Assembly: GCA_902800645.1 (NCBI GenBank)
Contig: CADCFC010000010.1
Location: 1 to 40,690, forward strand
Origin: an uncultured Erysipelotrichaceae bacterium
GTDB taxonomy: Bacteria > Bacillota_I > Bacilli_A > RFN20 > CAG-826
Reading direction: 5' to 3'
Length of the DNA: 40,690 nucleotides
Within the stretch, counting starts at the first letter, position 1. Each line of letters opens with the position of its first letter. Under the pieces are notes generated by a model. That model worked only from the letters and a program-made list of their open reading frames with translations. It ran no database searches and was not told the origin of the DNA. The translations under genes were made by a program, and so were the position numbers. Positions 2,139 to 12,954 of this stretch are shown piece by piece.

Positions 2139-3314
2139 ATGACGACAAACTATATATTGATGTATAAAAACGATGAAGTCCTTTCTTTTGGCGTGGACTT
2201 TGAAAAAAATAGAGTTAAATTTTTAAAAGAATTAGCCAACTTTTCAAAAGCTCCTTTAGGTTTAACTATGCCTAATGCTGATAAAGATATGGCGTTACAG
2301 AAATTTTTTAATAGTAGAACCATCGCTCCTCAAAGAGATGACTATAAAAAAATACTTGAAGCGACAAATTGCAAAGATGGCTTCTCTTTATCTTTTAAAG
2401 GACATGGATTATCTCTTTCTAACCATTATTGGTATAAAAAAGAGGGCGAGAATTTAAAATATGAAGACATCAGTTTTTTTATCAATAAATGGGATGATAC
2501 TTTTGGAAGAGCGGTACTAAATAAAGATTATGAATTACTTAAGACTTGCGACTTAAACGTTCCCGATATTGTCACTCCTGGATGGGGAATAAAAGGATGG
2601 GTGTTGGAGGATGTTCCAAGACTATATAAACTCGGAATTTATAGCGAGCATGTCGATGAATCTATTTGTGAAGTTCTCGCTTGTAAACTCGCTAAAAGAT
2701 TATTTGGAAGTGATGAAGTTGTGGAGCGTGAACTCGTAAAAGTTAAAGACACTTACGCCTCTACTTCTCCTTTAATTACTGGAATAAATGAGGAACTTAT
2801 TCCTCTTTCTACTGTATTGCCTCATGGTTGGTATGTTTTTTATCGAGAAAAGGATTCTAACAAAAAAAGAGAGTTTTTTGAGAAACTTAAAACGTTTGAT
2901 CTCATCCCTAATATAAATCAGTTTTTTATAAAAGTAATGGCCCTTAGAAGCTTAGCCTTTGTAAGTGATTTACATTTTGAGAATATCTCAGTTATTAGAA
3001 ATATGGAGACAGGCGAATTAAGAATGGCGCCTTTATATGATTTGGGTGGCGCTTTCGGTAGCTCAAAAACTGGTAAATCGATGATTAGTAACCTCACTAA
3101 AGCCACTTTCCTTTTAATATATTTTACATTTAACACTCTTGAACCAGATTGGGATTATTCTTGGTATGATCCTGCTCGATTGGTCGGCTTTGAAAACGAA
3201 ATAAGAAAGTACTTGTCTAAAAGTTATTTTTACACTACAGAACTCATCGAAAGAGTGATTGAAGTTTACCATCAACAAAAGTCTACTTTGGACGAATATG
3301 CAGCCAAAAAATAA
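2139..3314 (+). CDS. HipA-fold kinase-like protein
   Basis: 391-residue protein resembling HipA-type serine/threonine kinases. Supporting motifs are a glycine-rich loop GWGIKGW (148-154), a candidate ATP-contacting lysine in RLYKLG (K164), a catalytic loop D277-L-H-F-E-N282 in place of the usual D-R-H-x-x-N, and a metal-binding motif YDLGGAFG (D301). The N-terminal 130 residues are not recognised. It has no HipB-like antitoxin neighbour, so a classic toxin-antitoxin pair is unlikely. It lies between a two-component system and a radical SAM enzyme, 31 bases after the response regulator, so a role in phosphorylating a peptide or protein of this cluster is possible but is inference only. No Shine-Dalgarno is visible; a second Met at residue 8 could also be the start. 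Confidence 0.7.
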   Translation: MTTNYILMYKNDEVLSFGVDFEKNRVKFLKELANFSKAPLGLTMPNADKDMALQKFFNSRTIAPQRDDYKKILEATNCKDGFSLSFKGHGLSLSNHYWYKKEGENLKYEDISFFINKWDDTFGRAVLNKDYELLKTCDLNVPDIVTPGWGIKGWVLEDVPRLYKLGIYSEHVDESICEVLACKLAKRLFGSDEVVERELVKVKDTYASTSPLITGINEELIPLSTVLPHGWYVFYREKDSNKKREFFEKLKTFDLIPNINQFFIKVMALRSLAFVSDLHFENISVIRNMETGELRMAPLYDLGGAFGSSKTGKSMISNLTKATFLLIYFTFNTLEPDWDYSWYDPARLVGFENEIRKYLSKSYFYTTELIERVIEVYHQQKSTLDEYAAKK

Positions 3315-3388: not shown

Positions 3389-4783
3389 ATGTATTATAGA
3401 TTGAAAGATGACATCGCTTTAAGAAAATGGAAATATGTTGATCGCGCTATTTATAGAAAGAGCGATGACGTTGCTAGTGGAGTAAGTAAGGAAGAATTCG
3501 AACTACTTCTTCTTTGTGATGGAGAGCACGATATTGAACCAAGTCCTTATTTATCGACTTTATTATCTAGAAGATTAATTGAAGAGTGCCAAAAAGGAGA
3601 AAAACCATCCGAATGGTCTCTATTAAAAGAATATGATAATTATTATTTCCCAAGAATGAATCTCATGATTACTGGGAAATGCAATTTAAATTGTCTACAT
3701 TGTTTTAACGCTAAAGATAACGCTCCACTTAATAGTGAATTATCTTTTGAACAAATACTAAATATACTAGATCAAGCTCGTGATATTGGTGTTCGTTCTT
3801 TTACATTAACCGGAGGAGAACCTCTGGTTCATCGCCGTTTTCTTGATATCGTTAAGGCGATATATGAACGCGATATGATGATTTTTGAATTAAACACCAA
3901 TGGTTTATTAATGAACCAAAAGATGCTTGATACATTTAAAGAAGTTGGCTGTGATCCTCTTATTAAAATTTCTTTTGATGGAGTTGGTTATCATAACTGG
4001 ATTAGACAGCATCCAAAAGCGGAAGAGTTAACAATTAAAGCAATTAAACTTTGCATCGCTAATGGATTTAGAGTTAAAGCCCAAGTTCAGGTCAACCGTA
4101 AAAATGTTGATGTAATGTTTGAGACCGCTCGTTTACTTAACGATTTAGGAGTTAGTGAAATGCGTATTATCCGTACTACTGAAGCTCCTCGTTGGGAAAA
4201 GAATTCTCCTCAATCGAGCCTAACAATTGAGGAATATTATCAATCAATGTTGGAATTCTCTAAGCAATATATTGAAAGCGGTATGGAGATGACAATTGAC
4301 GTTTGGCAACTCGTAAGATTATATCCTCATCACAAATTATATGACTTAGTTCCTATTGCTTGTGATAAGGACGAATTTAATATCCGTATTCCAATGTGTA
4401 AAGGCAATAGAGGAATGATCGCCGTTAGTAGTAGTGGTGAAGTCGTACCTTGTTTACAAATGTCTGGTTACTTTTTAGAAAAAGGGATTAGTTTAGGTAA
4501 CTTATTTAAAACACCTTTAAAAGAGTTAGTAAAAGATAGCCCTTATCTTAATTTAGCGATGGCGCCTTTATTTAAACAAATCGTGGAGAATGATAAATGC
4601 GGTAACTGCAAATACTATAAAGCTTGTACAGGCGGTTGTCCTGCTCTCGGCTTATTATATTCTGTTAATAGCGACTTCTATCATGAAGATATAACTAAAT
4701 GTATTTTCTTTGAAAATGGGTGGTATGATAAGTCCATTGAATATTTAAAAGGCTGGAAAATTAAAAAACCACTTAATATCTAG
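3389..4783 (+). CDS. Radical SAM/SPASM peptide-modifying enzyme with PqqD-like N-terminus
   Basis: 464-residue radical SAM enzyme, probably a RiPP maturase. The start at 3389 (MYYRLKDD) is chosen because aagagg lies upstream and homology begins there; the open frame continues back to 3338. Residues 1-66 look like a PqqD/RRE-type peptide-recognition domain. The SAM-binding CxxxCxxC is C98/C102/C105, followed by TGGEP (141-145). The C-terminal SPASM domain is complete: C337, G350-x4-C355, then C404-x2-C407-x5-C413-x3-C417 and C438, enough for two auxiliary 4Fe-4S clusters. SPASM enzymes install thioether or carbon-carbon crosslinks or oxidise peptide side chains. A terminator follows, then the exporter operon. 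The substrate peptide is not visible in the window. Confidence 0.92.
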   Translation: MYYRLKDDIALRKWKYVDRAIYRKSDDVASGVSKEEFELLLLCDGEHDIEPSPYLSTLLSRRLIEECQKGEKPSEWSLLKEYDNYYFPRMNLMITGKCNLNCLHCFNAKDNAPLNSELSFEQILNILDQARDIGVRSFTLTGGEPLVHRRFLDIVKAIYERDMMIFELNTNGLLMNQKMLDTFKEVGCDPLIKISFDGVGYHNWIRQHPKAEELTIKAIKLCIANGFRVKAQVQVNRKNVDVMFETARLLNDLGVSEMRIIRTTEAPRWEKNSPQSSLTIEEYYQSMLEFSKQYIESGMEMTIDVWQLVRLYPHHKLYDLVPIACDKDEFNIRIPMCKGNRGMIAVSSSGEVVPCLQMSGYFLEKGISLGNLFKTPLKELVKDSPYLNLAMAPLFKQIVENDKCGNCKYYKACTGGCPALGLLYSVNSDFYHEDITKCIFFENGWYDKSIEYLKGWKIKKPLNI

Positions 4784-4794
4784 TTAACCACTAT

Positions 4795-4820
4795 AAGCGT
4801 CTTTGACGCTTTTTTTATTT
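4795..4820 (+). terminator. Terminator after the radical SAM gene
   Basis: Stem AAGCGTC / GACGCTT with a TTT loop, followed by a T tract. It separates the radical SAM transcript from the exporter operon. Confidence 0.85.
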
Positions 4821-4846
4821 AAAATATTTTAAAGAAATAATTAGAA

Positions 4847-4855
4847 TGCTATAAT
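4847..4855 (+). promoter_or_regulatory. Extended -10 promoter of the exporter operon
   Basis: TGCTATAAT is a perfect extended -10. The expected transcription start is near 4862, only about 7 bases before the ATG at 4869, so there is no room for a Shine-Dalgarno. The -35 is poor (TTTTAA at 4827-4832, 17-base spacer). Confidence 0.75.
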
Positions 4856-4868
4856 AATTTTGATTATT

Positions 4869-5258
4869 ATGAAAAAACAAATTTCTGGAATATCTAATCC
4901 TGATGAATTAAACAAAAGACTCCAATATACTTCCCCTGTTACTTGGATTATTTTGGGGCTCGTTGCTTCTTTACTTGTTGGATTATTTGTTTGGTCTTTT
5001 GTTTATAAGATTAAAGTTAAAATTACTGGATCGGCCTCAATTAGTAGTCACGTCGCAACACTTGTTGTACAAGACGGAGATTTGAAAAAATTAGCAGTTG
5101 GACAAACTGTCTATATTTCTAATCTCGAAGGCAAGATCCTTCATTTTGATGATAATAATCAACCGGTTGTCTCTGATTTTGATTTAAGCGATGGCAATTA
5201 TACTTATACGATTATTGTCAAAGAGATGAAACCAATTGAGTTCTTATTTGGAAGATAA
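4869..5258 (+). CDS. Minimal HlyD-like secretion adaptor (NHLM type)
   Basis: 129-residue membrane protein with one transmembrane helix (about residues 26-48) followed by a short outside beta-rich part. The N-terminal pattern NPDELNKRLQYTSP, then a helix, then KITGSASI resembles the start of NHLM-system HlyD-like secretion proteins. Those are usually 250 residues or more and carry an alpha-hairpin or lipoyl region, which is absent here. It probably helps couple the two ABC exporters that follow. Its stop lies 1 base before the next start, which indicates translational coupling. The ATG at 4869 is preferred over an upstream TTG at 4860 because of the promoter position. Family call is moderate, since the protein is so short. 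Confidence 0.65.
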   Translation: MKKQISGISNPDELNKRLQYTSPVTWIILGLVASLLVGLFVWSFVYKIKVKITGSASISSHVATLVVQDGDLKKLAVGQTVYISNLEGKILHFDDNNQPVVSDFDLSDGNYTYTIIVKEMKPIEFLFGR

Positions 5259-5259
5259 A

Positions 5260-7437
5260 ATGAAAAGAATAAAATTGCCAAAGACTAAAGGAGTTGCTAA
5301 TACTCCAATCATTATGCAACTTGAGGCTCTCGAATGCGGAGCTGCTTCTTTAGCTATGGTGATGGCTTATTACGATAAATGGGTACCACTTGAACAAGTT
5401 AGAGTCGATTGCGGTGTTTCTCGTAATGGTAGTAACGCAAAAAACATCTTAAGAGCGGCACAAAAATATGGTTTTAAAACCAAAGGCTTTGCCTATAACA
5501 TAAAAAAGATTAAAGAAAACGGTCATTTCCCAGCAATTATTCACTGGGGTGGTGGTCACTTCGTTGTTTTAAATGGTTTTAGGGGGAATAAAGCCATTAT
5601 TAATGATCCTGCAAAGGGACTAGTGAAAGTTGATTTAAAGACGTTTGATAAGTTCTTTACTGGCATATATCTAGAAATCATTCCTGATGAAGGCTTTGAA
5701 CCTGGAGGAAAAAGAAAATCGATATTACAGTTTGCTAAAAAACGTTTAAAAGGCGCTGCTGCACTAATTATTTTCTTTGCTATTACCACGATTATTTTCT
5801 ATTTGTTTGGAATCATTAATCCTGCAGTTAATCAGGCGTTTGTCGATTTCTTGTTGGGTGGTAATAACCCCGATTGGTTACTTCCTTTTATCTTTATCTT
5901 TGCAGGTATTGGTTTATTACAAATCACCTTAACGATCGTTCAAGCCATTTACCAATATAAAATTAGAGGAAAACTTGATCTTATTGGTTCTACAACTTAT
6001 ATGTGGAGAATTTTAAGATTACCAATTGAATTCTTCTCTCAAAGAATGGTTGGCGATTTGCAAATGCGTCGATCTGAAAACGCATCTATTGCAGAGACGC
6101 TTGTTAACGTTTTTGCTCCTTTATTATTCAACACAATTATGATTTTTGTTTATCTCGTTATCATGCTCAATAAGAGCGAAAAGAGTTGGATATTAACTTT
6201 AATTGGTGTCTTTACAATTACATTAAATGCATTTGTTTCCCGTTTCATTTCTAAACAAAGAGTTAACATCTCAAGAGTTCAAGCTCGAGATAACGCAAAA
6301 CTTTCAGCGATGACTTCAAAAGGAATTGAAATGATTGAAACCATTAAATCTAATGGCGCTGAGAAGGCGTATTTTGATAGTTGGTCTGAAGTTCAAGATA
6401 GCGCAGTTAGTGGAAAACTTAAACTTGCGAGAACTTCTCAATTTTACGGATTAATTCCTGCTATCATTTCAATGCTTGCTAATTATTCAGTTTTGATTCT
6501 TGGTGTTTATTTAACAATGAACGGTGAATTTACTGTTGGTTCTATTTTGGCTTTCCAAGGCTTATTATCAGCGTTCATGTCTCCTGCTATGACCATCATT
6601 TCAAGCGGACAAACCATTATTGAAATGAGAACACAAATGGAAAGAGTGGATGATGTTTTAGAATACCCACTAGATAAAAATGTTACTCGTGAGATTCCTA
6701 CGGATAAGATTTCTAAAATTAGAGGAAGCCTTATCCTTAAGAATGTTACTTTTGGCTACTCTAGACTTGATGATCCGATTTTAAAAAAATTTAACTTAGA
6801 GATTAAACAAGGACAAAAAATTGCAATTGTTGGTTCTACTGGTAGTGGTAAATCTACACTTTCAAAACTTATAAGCGGATTATATTCGCCTTGGAGTGGA
6901 GATATCATCTTTGATGGCAAATCTATTGAAGAAATTGATCATGAAATTTTTACTGCTTCGATAGCGGTAGTTGATCAAGATATTACCTTATTTGAAGACA
7001 CTATTTTAAACAATTTAAAAATGTGGGATGAATCAATCGAAGATTATGAAGTTGTTATGGCGTGTAATGATGCACAAATTCATAAACAAATCATGTCTAG
7101 AGATGGGGAATATAATGCGCCTGTTCTTGAAGGTGGTAAAAACTTCTCAGGTGGAGAAAGACAAAGGCTTGAAATTGCTCGTTCTTTAGCGGGTGATCCT
7201 AGCATTATCATCTTAGATGAAGCAACTAGCGCGCTAGACGCAAAAACTGAGCACGAAGTCGTTAAAGCAATTAAAGCTAGAGGCATTACTACAATTGTTA
7301 TTGCTCACCGTTTATCAACAATTAGAGACGCTGATTTAATCGTCGTTTTAAATAAAGGTGTTATCGCCGAACAAGGAACTCATGATGAGCTAATGAAACT
7401 TAAGGGCTATTATTATGAGCTTGTGACTAATGAATAG
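5260..7437 (+). CDS. C39-peptidase ABC exporter (NHLM/bacteriocin type)
   Basis: 725-residue peptidase-containing ABC transporter that cleaves leader peptides, usually after Gly-Gly, and exports the core peptide. The C39 domain (1-140) has Q20, catalytic C26 in LECGAAS, H100 in GGGHFVVL and D116 in NDPAKG, so the triad is intact. The transmembrane region spans roughly 165-450. The nucleotide-binding domain has Walker A GSTGSGKST (525-533), signature FSGGE (629-633), Walker B ILDE (D653/E654) and H683. Layout and neighbours match the first ABC protein of NHLM bacteriocin systems. The start at 5260 is chosen because it follows the upstream stop directly and the Shine-Dalgarno ggaag is at 5250; the frame is open back to 5236. 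Confidence 0.93.
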   Translation: MKRIKLPKTKGVANTPIIMQLEALECGAASLAMVMAYYDKWVPLEQVRVDCGVSRNGSNAKNILRAAQKYGFKTKGFAYNIKKIKENGHFPAIIHWGGGHFVVLNGFRGNKAIINDPAKGLVKVDLKTFDKFFTGIYLEIIPDEGFEPGGKRKSILQFAKKRLKGAAALIIFFAITTIIFYLFGIINPAVNQAFVDFLLGGNNPDWLLPFIFIFAGIGLLQITLTIVQAIYQYKIRGKLDLIGSTTYMWRILRLPIEFFSQRMVGDLQMRRSENASIAETLVNVFAPLLFNTIMIFVYLVIMLNKSEKSWILTLIGVFTITLNAFVSRFISKQRVNISRVQARDNAKLSAMTSKGIEMIETIKSNGAEKAYFDSWSEVQDSAVSGKLKLARTSQFYGLIPAIISMLANYSVLILGVYLTMNGEFTVGSILAFQGLLSAFMSPAMTIISSGQTIIEMRTQMERVDDVLEYPLDKNVTREIPTDKISKIRGSLILKNVTFGYSRLDDPILKKFNLEIKQGQKIAIVGSTGSGKSTLSKLISGLYSPWSGDIIFDGKSIEEIDHEIFTASIAVVDQDITLFEDTILNNLKMWDESIEDYEVVMACNDAQIHKQIMSRDGEYNAPVLEGGKNFSGGERQRLEIARSLAGDPSIIILDEATSALDAKTEHEVVKAIKARGITTIVIAHRLSTIRDADLIVVLNKGVIAEQGTHDELMKLKGYYYELVTNE

Positions 7438-7451
7438 AAAGGAAAAGAATT

Positions 7452-9635
7452 GTGGGCTGGTTTGAAGAACAAGTGAAACAAAGAAAGAAACTCGATGAAA
7501 AAACATTCGAAGATTCTTTTGCTTCGCTTGCTGGAATCAAAGTTGATAAAAAGTCTAATTTGAGCGATGAAGCGATCAAAGAAAATTTCGCTATTTCTCA
7601 AGTACTTTCCTATTTCCGTCATCAAATGGTTGATATTCCTGAAAAGATTACTACCTTTAAAGATAAACTTAATTACGCTTTAAGTCAGGTTGATATCGAA
7701 TATCGTAAAGTTGAGCTTAATGGCGAATGGGTAAATGACACTCATAGTCCAGTTCTTATTTTCACTTTGATTAGCCAAACTCCAGTTGTTCTTTTCCCGA
7801 TTGGAAATAAAGCTTACTACTATATCAATTATCAAACAGGTAAGAAGGTAAAAATCGAGGCTTCTTTAATTAATAAACTTGAAATGGAAGCTTATAGTTT
7901 TTATCGTCCTCTTCCAAGCAAGAAAATATCTGTTAAAGAATATGCAAAATATTTGCAAAAGAATATTCGTGTAAGAGATATCGTTCTTCTTATTTTGACG
8001 AGTGCGATTGTTAGTGGAGTTGGTTTATTAATCCCATATTTGACTAGGATATTAACCGGCGATGTAATCGATAAAGGCAATATTAATTATTTTATAATTA
8101 CTTCGATTTATGTTGTTTCTGCTGCCGCTGGACTTGTTTTAATTAAGGCAATTGAAGGATATGTTAATTCTCGAATAACGATCTCGGTTAATAAAGGCGT
8201 TACGGAAGCAACGATGATGAAGGCCTTAAATTTACCGACCTCATTCTTTAAAAAATATAATACTGGTGAATTGACTGCACGTTTCCAAAGTGTCATCGGA
8301 CTTGCTAATTTAATTGTTTCCAGTCTATTTGTTACTTTGATATCGGTTGTGATGTCACTTATGTACTTATTCCAATTAATTGGCTTTGCTCCTTCTTTGA
8401 TCTTACCGGTTATCATCGTTTTATTCGTCTCTTCTGCTTTCTCAATTTTGATTGCGTATATTCAAAGAAACTATAGTAAGAAACAACTCGAACTTTCTTC
8501 AAAAGAAAACGGCCTTACTTATGAAATTATTAACGGAATACAAAAAATAAGATTATCCGGATCAGAAAAAAGAGTTTTTGCTAAATGGGCAAAAGCGTAT
8601 TCTAAATCCGCTAGACTTTTATATAATCCACCTCTTTTATTGAAGATAGCTCCAGCTATTTCTTTATTAATCACTCTATTAGGTAATATTGCCATATATG
8701 CTGTTGCTGCTAAAAACAACATTAGTGTTAGTAGTTATATGGCGTTTGTATCTAGTTATGGTGTTCTTTCTAGCGCCTTTGCTTCATTAAGTCAAATGGT
8801 TGGTCTTGTTTATTCAATTCAACCGATGTACGAGATGGCTAGACCATTCTTAGAAGCTGAACCAGAGAATAACTCTAAAAAGCCTCCTATTGAAAACATC
8901 AAAGGTAACATCAAATTTGAGAATGTATCTTTTAGATATAATAGTGAGGGACCTCTTGTGGTCAATAATTTATCGCTAGATATTAAAGAAGGCGAATATA
9001 TCGCAATTGTTGGACAAACAGGTTGTGGTAAATCCACTCTTGTTAGACTATTATTAGGATTTGAAGAGCCAATTAATGGTAATATATTAATTGACGGTAA
9101 CAATCTTAAAAATGTTGATTTGACTTCTTTGAGAAGAAATATCGGCACAGTTATGCAAAATGGAACTTTGTTCCACGCTGATATATTGTCTAATATCATC
9201 ATCTCTTCTCCATCTTTAAAAGAAGAAGATGCTTGGGAAGCCGCGGAAATTGCTAATATCGCTGAGGATATTAGAGAAATGCCTATGGGAATGAATACTG
9301 TTATCTCAGAAGGCCAAGGTGGCATTTCTGGCGGACAAAAGCAAAGAATCATGATTGCTAGAGCGATTGTGCATAAACCAAAGGTTTTAATCTTTGATGA
9401 AGCTACAAGCGCCTTAGATAATAAAACTCAAAAGAGTATCTCCGATTCAATTAGTAAACTTAATTGTACGAGAATTGTAATCGCTCACCGTTTATCTACT
9501 ATTCAAAGTGCGGACCGCATTTTGATGCTTGAAGGTGGAAAGGTTATTGAAGAAGGTAATTATCAGACCTTAATTGATAAAAAAGGCAAGTTTGCAGAAC
9601 TTGTCGACAGACAAAGATTAGATAATAACAAATAG
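7452..9635 (+). CDS. Second ABC exporter of the NHLM type, GTG start
   Basis: 727-residue exporter half-transporter without a peptidase domain. The N-terminal motif GWFEEQVKQR followed by EDSF is typical of the second ABC protein of NHLM bacteriocin systems, and residues 1-165 form a soluble N-terminal domain. Transmembrane helices span about 175-460. The nucleotide-binding domain is complete: Walker A GQTGCGKST (521-529), ISGGQ (625-629), Walker B VLIFDE (645-650) and H679. Translation starts at GTG with the Shine-Dalgarno gaaagga, 14 bases after the preceding stop. It probably forms a heterodimer with the C39 exporter, which is the inferred reason for their pairing. Confidence 0.9.
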   Translation: MGWFEEQVKQRKKLDEKTFEDSFASLAGIKVDKKSNLSDEAIKENFAISQVLSYFRHQMVDIPEKITTFKDKLNYALSQVDIEYRKVELNGEWVNDTHSPVLIFTLISQTPVVLFPIGNKAYYYINYQTGKKVKIEASLINKLEMEAYSFYRPLPSKKISVKEYAKYLQKNIRVRDIVLLILTSAIVSGVGLLIPYLTRILTGDVIDKGNINYFIITSIYVVSAAAGLVLIKAIEGYVNSRITISVNKGVTEATMMKALNLPTSFFKKYNTGELTARFQSVIGLANLIVSSLFVTLISVVMSLMYLFQLIGFAPSLILPVIIVLFVSSAFSILIAYIQRNYSKKQLELSSKENGLTYEIINGIQKIRLSGSEKRVFAKWAKAYSKSARLLYNPPLLLKIAPAISLLITLLGNIAIYAVAAKNNISVSSYMAFVSSYGVLSSAFASLSQMVGLVYSIQPMYEMARPFLEAEPENNSKKPPIENIKGNIKFENVSFRYNSEGPLVVNNLSLDIKEGEYIAIVGQTGCGKSTLVRLLLGFEEPINGNILIDGNNLKNVDLTSLRRNIGTVMQNGTLFHADILSNIIISSPSLKEEDAWEAAEIANIAEDIREMPMGMNTVISEGQGGISGGQKQRIMIARAIVHKPKVLIFDEATSALDNKTQKSISDSISKLNCTRIVIAHRLSTIQSADRILMLEGGKVIEEGNYQTLIDKKGKFAELVDRQRLDNNK

Positions 9636-9646
9636 GAGGATATTAT

Positions 9647-9940
9647 ATGAATCACACTTTGGAAAACGAAAAATTAACGATCTTTTTAGAAGGAGAACTC
9701 AATTCTTATAATTGCGATGAAGTTGAAACTGAGATCGAAAAGATTGTTTCTGAAAAACCTTTTAAATCTCTCGTTTTAGATTTTGACAATTTACGTTATA
9801 TCTCTTCAGCGGGTTTAAGAATTATCGTTAGATTAAAACAAAGATTTGATGATTTAAGTCTTGTTAAAGTTTCTAGTGATGTCTATGACATTCTTGATAT
9901 GGTCGGATTCGTAAAAATGTTCGCCATTGAAAAGAAATAG
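9647..9940 (+). CDS. STAS-domain anti-sigma-factor-antagonist-like protein
   Basis: 97-residue STAS protein of the SpoIIAA/RsbV type. The family's phosphorylation loop appears as YISSAGLRI (51-59), with S54 as the likely phosphoacceptor. In the partner-switching scheme the RsbW-like kinase phosphorylates this serine and the RsbU-like phosphatase removes the phosphate; both activities are encoded three genes downstream in one polypeptide. It has a strong Shine-Dalgarno (aggagg) and sits 11 bases after the second ABC gene. It is about 40% similar by eye to the STAS domain of the next gene. Placement inside an exporter operon suggests control of peptide export or synthesis rather than of a general stress sigma factor. 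Confidence 0.88.
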   Translation: MNHTLENEKLTIFLEGELNSYNCDEVETEIEKIVSEKPFKSLVLDFDNLRYISSAGLRIIVRLKQRFDDLSLVKVSSDVYDILDMVGFVKMFAIEKK

Positions 9941-9950
9941 TGAGGTTGAT

Positions 9951-11105
9951 ATGGAATTTAATGTTAATAATGGTGTATTAACCCTCTATTTTCCTAGTGA
10001 ATTGAATTCATCAAATTCCGAGAAAGTGGGACAAGAAATCGACGAAATAATTAAAGAAAATAATTTTTCATCAGTTATTGTTGATTTAGATAAATGCTCC
10101 TATGTTTCTAGTGCGGGATTAAGAGTTGTTTTAAAACTTAAACAACAATATGATGATCTCGTTGTTAATAATGCTTCTTTAGAAGTTTATGACATTTTCC
10201 AAATGACCGGATTCACTAATATTATGAAGGTAAATAAAGCCTTAAGAGTGGTGGATTTAACTAATACAGAAGTGATTGGAGATGGATATTTCTCCACTGT
10301 ATATCGCTTAGATAAAGATACGATTGTTAAGGTATTTAATCGCACTAGTGACCCAGAGCAAATTAATCGTGAATTATTTTTAGCTAAAGAAGCGTTTGTT
10401 CTTGGTGTTCCTACCGCAATATCTTTTGATATTGTTAAAGCCGGAGATAAGCTCGGCGTGATTTTTGAAATGCTTGACTGTATGTCGCTTAAAAATGTCG
10501 TTATTACTTATCCTGAAAAAATGCATGAATATTTAGAAAAATATGCAGCATTACTTAAAAAGATTAACACTACAGAATGCTTCAATGAGTCTATTCCTGA
10601 CATCAAGAAAAAGTATTTTGAAAAGCTTGAAATGATTAAACCATTTCTAGATGAAGCTCATTATAGTAAAGCCTATAATTTACTTTCTTCAATTGAAGAT
10701 CGTAAGACATTTATTCATGGCGATTGTCACTTTAAAAATATTATGGTGCAAAATGGTGAACTTATCTTGATAGATATGGACACTCTTTCTGTCGGACATC
10801 CTATTTTTGAACTTGCTGCTTTATATGCACCTTATTGTGCTTTTAACGAAGACGATCCTGGAAATAGTGAGAAGTTTTTTGGAATAAGTGATGAGAATGC
10901 TTCTAAATTATATAACGCACTTCTTAATCTATATTTTGGGAAAGATGATCCAGTTATCAAAGATAAAATTAGATTACTTTCTTATATTCATATGGTGTGG
11001 TGGAACCGCACTAATGAACCAAATAATGAAATTCGATTAAACGGATGTAGAAATAGATTATATGCTTTATTAGACAAATATAATGACTTAAACATTGGTA
11101 TCTAA
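9951..11105 (+). CDS. STAS domain fused to an APH-type kinase
   Basis: 384-residue fusion. Residues 1-100 are a second STAS domain with phosphorylation loop YVSSAGLRV (51-59, S54). Residues about 105-384 are an aminoglycoside-phosphotransferase-fold kinase: glycine-rich loop GDGYFSTVY (110-118), ATP-binding K127, catalytic loop HGDCHFKN (256-263) and metal-binding D275/D277 in LIDMDTL. Catalytic residues are intact, so an active small-molecule or peptide kinase is plausible; its substrate is unknown. The STAS part would let its activity or location respond to the partner switch. The start at 9951 (MEFNV) is preferred over 9927, which would overlap the previous gene; gtgagg lies upstream. Confidence 0.85.
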   Translation: MEFNVNNGVLTLYFPSELNSSNSEKVGQEIDEIIKENNFSSVIVDLDKCSYVSSAGLRVVLKLKQQYDDLVVNNASLEVYDIFQMTGFTNIMKVNKALRVVDLTNTEVIGDGYFSTVYRLDKDTIVKVFNRTSDPEQINRELFLAKEAFVLGVPTAISFDIVKAGDKLGVIFEMLDCMSLKNVVITYPEKMHEYLEKYAALLKKINTTECFNESIPDIKKKYFEKLEMIKPFLDEAHYSKAYNLLSSIEDRKTFIHGDCHFKNIMVQNGELILIDMDTLSVGHPIFELAALYAPYCAFNEDDPGNSEKFFGISDENASKLYNALLNLYFGKDDPVIKDKIRLLSYIHMVWWNRTNEPNNEIRLNGCRNRLYALLDKYNDLNIGI

Positions 11106-11106
11106 T

Positions 11107-12954
11107 ATGGAACTTAAAAATAAAGAATATATTGCAGCCTATAATAAAAATGAAGCTGATGCTAATAAGCATATGTCCTATGTTAATGGGGCAGCTTCAC
11201 TTTTGTCTTTGGTTCTTTGGATACTTTACTTAACTAAAATATTTACAATTTCTGAAGAACTATTTCCTATCGTCACTGTTTTATTCCCACTTGCAACAGT
11301 GCTTTTAATTATCCCAGTATTTTTAGTTAAAACCGAAGCAATTACTAAATCTTGGTATAAATATTTCATTCTGTTTTCTTTATTAATTGTAATAATTGCA
11401 ATTAATATTACCATTCCTAAGCACGGCATGCTTTTGTGGCCTTTTGCCATTCTTATTGCGAACCATTACTATAACCCAGTATTAGGTAGAATCATTTATG
11501 TTTTTACTTTAGTAATGATGCTTATTTGCATGTATTTAGGAATGCTATTTGGCGAATATGATCTCAACCTTCTTGGTGGAGGAGTTGTCGTCGATGGCGA
11601 AATCGTTTATTACGATAATTATATCCAAAGAATTAATATGCTTAAAACGATGCTTCTGAATGGAGAAAACCGTTATGTAAAAGTATTGATTTTCTATTAT
11701 TTACCAAGAGCGGCAGTTGTTACTTTATTCTTCATGGTTTCTAACTTACTTAATAGAAGAACTTATAAGTTGCTCGATCAAGAAATTAAAATTCACGACG
11801 AACAAGAAAAATCTAAAACCGAACTTGAAGTTGCTAAAGACATTCAATTAAGCACTCTTCCTGAAGAATTCATTTCCTCTAAGGACGTTGAAATTATTGG
11901 AGAACTTAAAGCTGCAAAAGAAGTCGGTGGAGACTTCTATGATTATTTAGATATTGATGAAGATCACGTTGCCATTATTATTGGTGATGTTTCTGGAAAA
12001 GGCGTTCCAGCTGCGATGTTTATGATGAAGACAATCACTTCATTTAGAGACTTCGCTAAAGGCAGTACTTCACCATCTCAAATTTTAAGAGAAGTTAATG
12101 CCTCTATTTATAGAGGCAATAAGTCGAGCATGTTTGTTACTTGCTTCTTAGCAATTTTAAATAAGAAAACTGGTCGACTTATTTACGCTAACGCAGGGCA
12201 TAATCGTCCAGTTGTTGGTCAAAAGCAAAAGTATCACTTCTTGCCTTGTGAATCAGGCTTATTACTCGGCTGCTTTAAAGACGCCTTTGTTAGCGACCAA
12301 GAAATTACTTTAAATCCTGGAGATAGTATTACTTTATATACTGATGGCATTACTGAAGCTAGAAATAATCAAGGCGGTTTCTTTGGAGAAAAGAGATTAA
12401 TTGAAGCCTTTAATAAAAATGATTATACCTGTATTGTTGAACTCCATCACGCGATCAAAGATTCAATTGCGACATTTGTTGATGGCGCACCTCAAAGTGA
12501 TGATATCACTTTCGTTACATTAAAATATCAAGGCGGACATTATTCTTATCTTGAAAAATATTTTGATGCAAGAATTGAAAATGTTAAAAACATGTTAGCG
12601 TTAATTGAAAATTTCGGTGAAGAACATCATTTCCCAATGAGTTTTGTTAATCAACTTGTTGTCGTTGGTGACGAATTATTCTCTAATATCGTTAATCACG
12701 GTTATAACAATAAAGGTGGAGACATATTCGTGAGATTACTCTTTAATGATGATACTAATGAGTTTGCTTTAACAGTTATTGATAGAGCCACTCCATTTAA
12801 TCAATTAGAGGTTAATGATGAAGCGTATGATGAAAACACTGATAAAAACAAGATTGGTGGACTTGGTATCTTAATTGTAAAAAAGATTATGACCGAGTAC
12901 GCTTACGATTATATTAACGGCAAAAATATTCTTGTACTTAAAAAACGTTTCTAG
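11107..12954 (+). CDS. Membrane RsbU-like PP2C phosphatase fused to RsbW-like kinase
   Basis: 615-residue protein carrying both arms of a partner switch. The N-terminal 220 residues hold about six transmembrane helices with no recognised sensor. After a short coiled coil, a SpoIIE/RsbU-type PP2C domain (about 240-475) has metal-binding aspartates in EVGGD (D276), GDVSGKG (D294), TDGITEA (D413) and QSDD (465-466). The C-terminal HATPase (about 480-615) of the RsbW/SpoIIAB type has E523/N527 in DELFSNIVNHGY and GGLGI near 584-588. The STAS proteins upstream are the expected substrates. ATG at 11107 follows the previous stop by one base; a TTG at 11095 is an alternative. A strong terminator ends the operon, and no sigma factor is encoded in it. 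Confidence 0.9.
   Translation: MELKNKEYIAAYNKNEADANKHMSYVNGAASLLSLVLWILYLTKIFTISEELFPIVTVLFPLATVLLIIPVFLVKTEAITKSWYKYFILFSLLIVIIAINITIPKHGMLLWPFAILIANHYYNPVLGRIIYVFTLVMMLICMYLGMLFGEYDLNLLGGGVVVDGEIVYYDNYIQRINMLKTMLLNGENRYVKVLIFYYLPRAAVVTLFFMVSNLLNRRTYKLLDQEIKIHDEQEKSKTELEVAKDIQLSTLPEEFISSKDVEIIGELKAAKEVGGDFYDYLDIDEDHVAIIIGDVSGKGVPAAMFMMKTITSFRDFAKGSTSPSQILREVNASIYRGNKSSMFVTCFLAILNKKTGRLIYANAGHNRPVVGQKQKYHFLPCESGLLLGCFKDAFVSDQEITLNPGDSITLYTDGITEARNNQGGFFGEKRLIEAFNKNDYTCIVELHHAIKDSIATFVDGAPQSDDITFVTLKYQGGHYSYLEKYFDARIENVKNMLALIENFGEEHHFPMSFVNQLVVVGDELFSNIVNHGYNNKGGDIFVRLLFNDDTNEFALTVIDRATPFNQLEVNDEAYDENTDKNKIGGLGILIVKKIMTEYAYDYINGKNILVLKKRF

Follow-up and report, generated by a model that had tools for sequence, protein, structure and literature searches.

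A STAS domain is fused to an APH-fold kinase in a protein, here called SK, that is encoded in a 40,690-nucleotide stretch of DNA (the window) from an uncultured Erysipelotrichaceae bacterium. Gene order showed that the constant partner of SK is a gene coding a membrane SpoIIE-type phosphatase with an RsbW/SpoIIAB-type HATPase, a partnership that is well supported across loci and had been overlooked by an earlier sequence-only reading of this DNA. We consider it rather probable that these proteins form a partner-switching module without a sigma factor, the effector of which is the STAS-tethered kinase. Partner switches are generally regarded as controlling sigma factors. In this case, their parts were found in small genomes with little beyond RpoD and were physically joined to an enzyme, so that control of catalysis in cis by a STAS phospho-switch can be put to a direct test with SK.

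SK joins a STAS domain to an intact APH-fold kinase

The gene and its parts are located as follows.

9951..11105, + strand: STAS-APH kinase fusion (SK), 384 aa; ORF with ATG start and TAA stop
9957..10238, + strand: STAS domain of SK, aa 3-96 (Pfam PF01740, E 7.4e-13)
10107-10109 and 10110-10112, + strand: codons of S53 and S54
10272..10838, + strand: APH-fold kinase domain of SK, aa 108-296 (Pfam PF01636, E 1.9e-11)
10329-10331, 10716-10739 and 10773-10775, + strand: codons of K127, HGDCHFKN and D275

The sequence-only reading had described a STAS domain with a phosphorylatable loop in front of an intact APH-type kinase, and this description held in every part. Within the single 384-aa ORF, both domains scored above the Pfam gathering scores (48.6 bits against 22.6 for STAS, 44.6 bits against 23.2 for APH). 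The kinase motifs were all where that reading had placed them, with GDGYFSTVY at aa 110-118, HGDCHFKN at aa 256-263, and D275 and D277 present; these include the ATP-binding lysine (K127), the HGDxHxKN motif and the metal aspartate (D275) that define the APH family. The phosphorylation site of SpoIIAA is Ser58. When SK was aligned to SpoIIAA, the serine loop was intact and S54 of SK aligned with S58, while S53 replaced D57.

The AlphaFold2 model of SK (mean pLDDT 93.6, pTM 0.82) matched SpoIIAA (1th8_B) in its STAS half with Z 15.0 and rmsd 1.6 over 97 residues, and matched choline and aminoglycoside kinases in its C-terminal half with Z up to 16.8 and rmsd 4.4 over 250 residues. The APH fold extended to about aa 379, past the end of the Pfam match at aa 296. 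Structural matches of this second half included 3dxq, APH(2''), LicA and APH(4) at Z 15-17, macrolide kinases, and the LxmKY complex (9dk3, Z 14.4), the last of these being a fold-level likeness to the class V lanthipeptide kinase LxmK. Structure prediction had been proposed in the earlier reading as a way to a substrate class. Metabolite, antibiotic and peptide kinases, however, tied at Z 14-17, and therefore no substrate class can be called from the structure of SK. LicA and the choline/ethanolamine kinases share the APH fold with SK (LicA at 16-18% identity and Z of about 15) but lack a STAS domain, and a substrate is not transferable at such identity.

By profile, the nearest named kinase family was TIGR02172, a Fibrobacter paralogous APH-like family, with a match at aa 101-328. 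Its model spans the kinase part only, and the score of 100.5 bits was below the curated cut-off of 228.2; a search of the window's own genome with this model likewise stayed below the cut-off. We found no paper on TIGR02172 among open-licence papers. The neighbours of SK outside NHLM export loci were housekeeping-like (pyruvate kinase-like, surE-like and aldolase-like, as judged from sequence starts), and are therefore uninformative on the substrate.

The matches to aminoglycoside and macrolide kinases would fit an APH for self-resistance or detoxification to which a STAS domain was added, bringing it to the membrane phosphatase. We regard this as highly improbable, because choline and other metabolite kinases matched the fold equally well, SK scored below the cut-off of each named NCBIfam family, and plasmids gave no full-length match and viral contigs no match at all. 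The last result also speaks against carriage of SK by a plasmid or virus.

SK is conserved but patchily distributed

A genome scan found SK homologues at 49 loci in other genomes, all but a few of which were labelled metagenome-assembled Bacilli and most of which came from rumen or gut. Both Pfam domains were present in 54 of 54 members of the SK alignment. Identity to the SK of the window dropped to 34% within these 54 rows, and still S53, S54, G110, G112, K127, E141, H256, G257, D258, H260, K262, N263, D275 and D277 were invariant. A fusion by chance is therefore excluded. The sequence-only reading had named absence of the fusion from relatives, or loss of the kinase motifs in homologues, as signs of a local accident; neither was seen, and both accident and decay are ruled out by this conservation.

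Evenly drawn samples gave an SK match in 12 of 392 genomes for the phylum and in 18 of 395 for the class. The matches covered at least five families of one class, and those from the phylum sample fell only within that same class. SK is thus patchily distributed yet under constraint. We found no description of a STAS-APH fusion in open-licence papers.

Two single copies looked damaged. The SK gene of G327 (L090/L091, G327 C4:16486-17645) had several in-frame stops and lay beside a broken-looking phosphatase gene, and that of L058/G022 had a C-terminal frame break. Second, diverged STAS-APH copies, 40% identical and with the motif residues kept, were found at L052:5371-6492 and L056:4552-5673, within a few kb of the main SK gene. 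PADLOC gave no match for SK, STAS or the phosphatase, so that a defence system was rejected.

A phosphatase-HATPase gene is the constant partner of SK

Two genes flank SK in the window.

9647..9940, + strand: free STAS protein, 97 aa (PF01740, E 6.5e-14), sharing about 42% identity with the STAS domain of SK
11107..12954, + strand: membrane SpoIIE-type PP2C phosphatase with a C-terminal RsbW/SpoIIAB-type HATPase, 615 aa (SpoIIE E 1.4e-52, HATPase_c_2 E 6e-19)

The phosphatase gene begins 1 nt past SK. Its product has hydrophobic segments between aa 28 and 212, and scored 178.9 bits for SpoIIE (cut-off 25) and 68.7 bits for HATPase_c_2 (cut-off 27.4). The metal residues of the phosphatase and the N-box residues E523/N527 of the HATPase were invariant in 18 homologues.

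A phosphatase-HATPase gene adjoined SK in 40 of the 49 loci, usually within about 7 nt, and in 36 of the 44 loci that had more than 1.5 kb of downstream sequence. The remaining 9 of 49 loci had no adjacent phosphatase gene, and all nine of these genomes encoded a phosphatase homologue elsewhere (in G447, the SpoIIE part only). Gene order varied in more distant families while the partner stayed: against STAS-SK-phosphatase in the window, it was STAS-phosphatase-SK in L041 and L148, and the phosphatase lay upstream of SK in L019, L020, L085, L087, L145 and L146, with another sensor domain (5TMR_LYT) in L020. A one-chain form was found in L147/L021. In L147, HATPase (E 5.9e-16), STAS (E 1.7e-15) and APH (E 5.5e-10) made up a single chain of 525 aa with its ATG at 435 (L147:435-2012); a free STAS gene came next.

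The free STAS gene adjoined SK in 12 of 12 loci linked to the NHLM exporter, and STAS domains serve as competitors in partner switches. Both observations would suit a scheme in which sensing falls to the APH domain and output to STAS, metabolite binding or phosphorylation altering the competition of STAS for the HATPase and thereby tuning the free STAS and the exporter. We think this unlikely, as the fully conserved catalytic residues point to turnover rather than binding alone, and no free STAS gene was adjacent at 33 of the 49 loci.

A cognate sigma factor is an unlikely output

The window's genome, which is 90% complete, gave two sigma-70 region-2 matches, namely RpoD and a SigH-like protein of 201 aa. 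The latter lies beside rlmB-like and cysS-like genes, which we take to be the usual neighbourhood of SigH (names by sequence and general knowledge). Neither a SigB/SigF/SigG-type sigma factor nor a free RsbW was found in this 90% complete assembly. All three of its RsbW-type HATPases were fused to membrane proteins: the phosphatase adjacent to SK, a MATE-like transporter and a second phosphatase. No more than one sigma-70 region-2 match was detected in 14 of the 49 SK genomes, nearly all of which are metagenome assemblies where absence of a sigma factor could mean incompleteness. Taken together, these results make a cognate SigB/F-type factor unlikely as the general output of the module.

Transcription might still be the output if the HATPase sequestered RpoD, the SigH-like factor or another regulator, with the kinase as a side branch. 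The presence of the small SigH-like sigma, and of several small sigma factors in some SK genomes, would allow this. In several other SK genomes, however, the sole sigma match was RpoD-sized, and the HATPases here are membrane-tethered fusions, which makes this arrangement very doubtful. Annotation of SpoIIE and STAS genes as anti-sigma systems by default is unwarranted in such sigma-poor gut bacteria.

A second partner-switch set was observed in the window's genome at L104:27-6856 (G000 C19). It comprises an adenylation/reductase gene, the MATE-like transporter fused to an RsbW-type HATPase, a STAS gene, and a membrane protein with sensor, SpoIIE and HATPase parts.

Proposed mechanism and its relation to known switches

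In the module that we favour, the membrane sensor protein would bear two opposing activities. Its RsbW/SpoIIAB-type serine kinase (HATPase) would phosphorylate Ser54 in the STAS half of SK, and also the free STAS protein, and its SpoIIE-type phosphatase domain, governed by the membrane sensor, would strip the phosphate from Ser54. The phosphorylation state of Ser54 would gate the activity or the availability of the attached APH-fold kinase, in a direction that may be either activating or inhibiting, and the kinase so gated would phosphorylate a target, most likely a small molecule. The parts of this scheme that can be read from the sequences are the fusion, the intact active sites, the conserved partnership, the one-chain HATPase-STAS-APH form and the lack of a detected SigB/F-type factor in the assembly. 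The free STAS protein could instead be the real target of the switch, with the STAS half of SK a mere docking handle. A sigma-free, post-translational cascade, in which the STAS state turns on an APH kinase acting on a protein or peptide such as the exporter or its peptides, seems improbable to us.

The SpoIIAA/RsbV-SpoIIAB/RsbW-SpoIIE/RsbU systems of Bacillus have in common with the SK module a STAS protein with a phospho-serine loop (here with S54 as the acceptor), an RsbW-type HATPase and a SpoIIE/RsbU-type phosphatase. In the SK module, however, the HATPase is not free and is combined with the phosphatase in one membrane protein, STAS is fused to a kinase, and no cognate SigB/F/G-group sigma factor was found in the 90% complete genome.

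In SiaABCD of Pseudomonas aeruginosa, an enzyme and not a sigma factor is controlled: a phosphatase and a kinase decide whether a small partner protein is phosphorylated, and this partner, SiaC, activates the diguanylate cyclase SiaD (PMC8457831). The output of SiaABCD is a separate diguanylate cyclase, whereas that of SK would be an APH-fold kinase joined to STAS. The view of the sequence-only reading that STAS proteins usually bind partners passively is thus roughly right, with SiaC-SiaD as a case of an enzyme switched by a phosphorylated partner (PMC8457831). SypE of Vibrio fischeri resembles the phosphatase-HATPase protein in that it holds a serine kinase and a phosphatase in one protein and acts on a STAS protein, SypA (PMC8256260); SypA consists of STAS only, unlike SK. 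What differs from these switches is the covalent tie between STAS and an APH-fold kinase, together with the form that has the HATPase in cis.

SK lies in an NHLM export operon in one clade

Upstream of the free STAS gene, the window holds an export locus.

3389..4783, + strand: radical SAM/SPASM protein belonging to the export locus, probably transcribed separately
4795..4811, + strand: terminator-like hairpin with T tract, 3' of the radical SAM gene
4828..4855, + strand: extended -10 promoter-like site in front of the HlyD-ABC1-ABC2-STAS-SK-phosphatase run, identified by its match to the consensus alone
4869..5258, + strand: short HlyD-like membrane protein, 129 aa, first gene of the tight run (weak match to the N-terminal 60 positions of TIGR03794)
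5260..7437, + strand: NHLM-type ABC transporter 1 with C39 peptidase domain (TIGR03796, 826 bits; Peptidase_C39, E 7.6e-31)
7452..9635, + strand: NHLM-type ABC transporter 2, permease/ATPase (TIGR03797, 662 bits)

The hairpin and the promoter-like site divide the radical SAM gene from the tight run that ends with SK and the phosphatase. The promoter-like site is only suggestive, because promoter matches across the region were no commoner than in shuffled sequences. The two ABC proteins were full-length, and TIGR03796 and TIGR03797 were their respective best-scoring families, with scores just below the equivalog cut-offs (826 against 853 and 662 against 709 bits). The C39 leader peptidase and co-occurring GG-leader peptides expected of an NHLM system were both found. 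The HlyD-like protein has one hydrophobic segment and is short against the 421 positions of TIGR03794, and relatives keep this short form. Further upstream are a LytS-like histidine kinase and response regulator (76-2107, +), a similar regulator being found near SK in L040-L043, and a HipA-like kinase gene (2139-3314, +; weak matches to Pfam HipA_C and PADLOC PDC-M03A), which is repeatedly found next to the radical SAM gene in NHLM loci.

The sequence-only reading had placed SK in a peptide-export operon and asked whether the domain pair always lies beside NHLM-type ABC genes. The first is right for the window, where these genes share an operon with SK, and does not extend to SK in general. 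The exporter was linked to SK in 12 of the 49 loci, and in 8 of the 25 loci whose two flanks each exceeded 6 kb, so that a constant linkage is ruled out by synteny. All linked loci belonged to a single crown clade in the SK tree (20 rows, SH-aLRT 97; trees were made by a quick method without bootstrap). In at least four genomes the NHLM-STAS-phosphatase operon was kinase-free, with the kinase elsewhere in the genome; the order in G446, G477, G448 and G458 was rSAM-HlyD-ABC1-ABC2-STAS-phosphatase with no SK. The phosphatases of G446, G477, G448 and G458 shared with that of the window a 22-row clade (support 100) that was separate from most phosphatases of SK-only loci. These trees and gene orders are most simply read as the uptake of SK by an export operon with a STAS and a phosphatase already in place, although the unrooted tree leaves the direction free. 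In the lineage of the window, SK would probably couple the same sensor to export, since relatives without SK at this place still have a STAS and a phosphatase that belong to the NHLM operon itself.

The exporter was detected in 25 of the 49 SK genomes. Nif11-type peptides were found in all 25 of these and in 5 of the other 24 (Fisher p 2e-9, although relatedness makes the genomes non-independent), and neither exporter nor putative peptides were detected in 19 of the 49. It is therefore unlikely that the kinase depends on the peptides.

The APH-like kinase LxmK is thought to phosphorylate Ser/Thr of the precursor in class V lanthipeptides. SK might by analogy be a tailoring kinase that phosphorylates Ser/Thr of exported Nif11-type precursors, with STAS as a docking domain; its place within the exporter operon here, the Nif11-type peptides of the genome and the LxmKY complex among its structural matches are in line with this. 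The 19 genomes without detected exporter or peptides, and the NHLM operons without SK, make such a role quite unlikely.

The Nif11-like GG-leader peptides are paralogues, with about ten in the window's genome (G000) and as many as 31 in a single genome. Most of their cores carried a zinc-ribbon-like CPxCG...CxxCGxxW pattern, the four core cysteines being invariant in 13 aligned sequences. Their genes are located as follows.

L116:1217-3235, L117:1395-2310 (- strand), L115:991-1284 and L118:1462-1749: Nif11-like peptides on G000 contigs C17, C1 and C5
L039:1247-1531, L044:11404-11691 and L051:1240-1793: Nif11-like peptides of further loci
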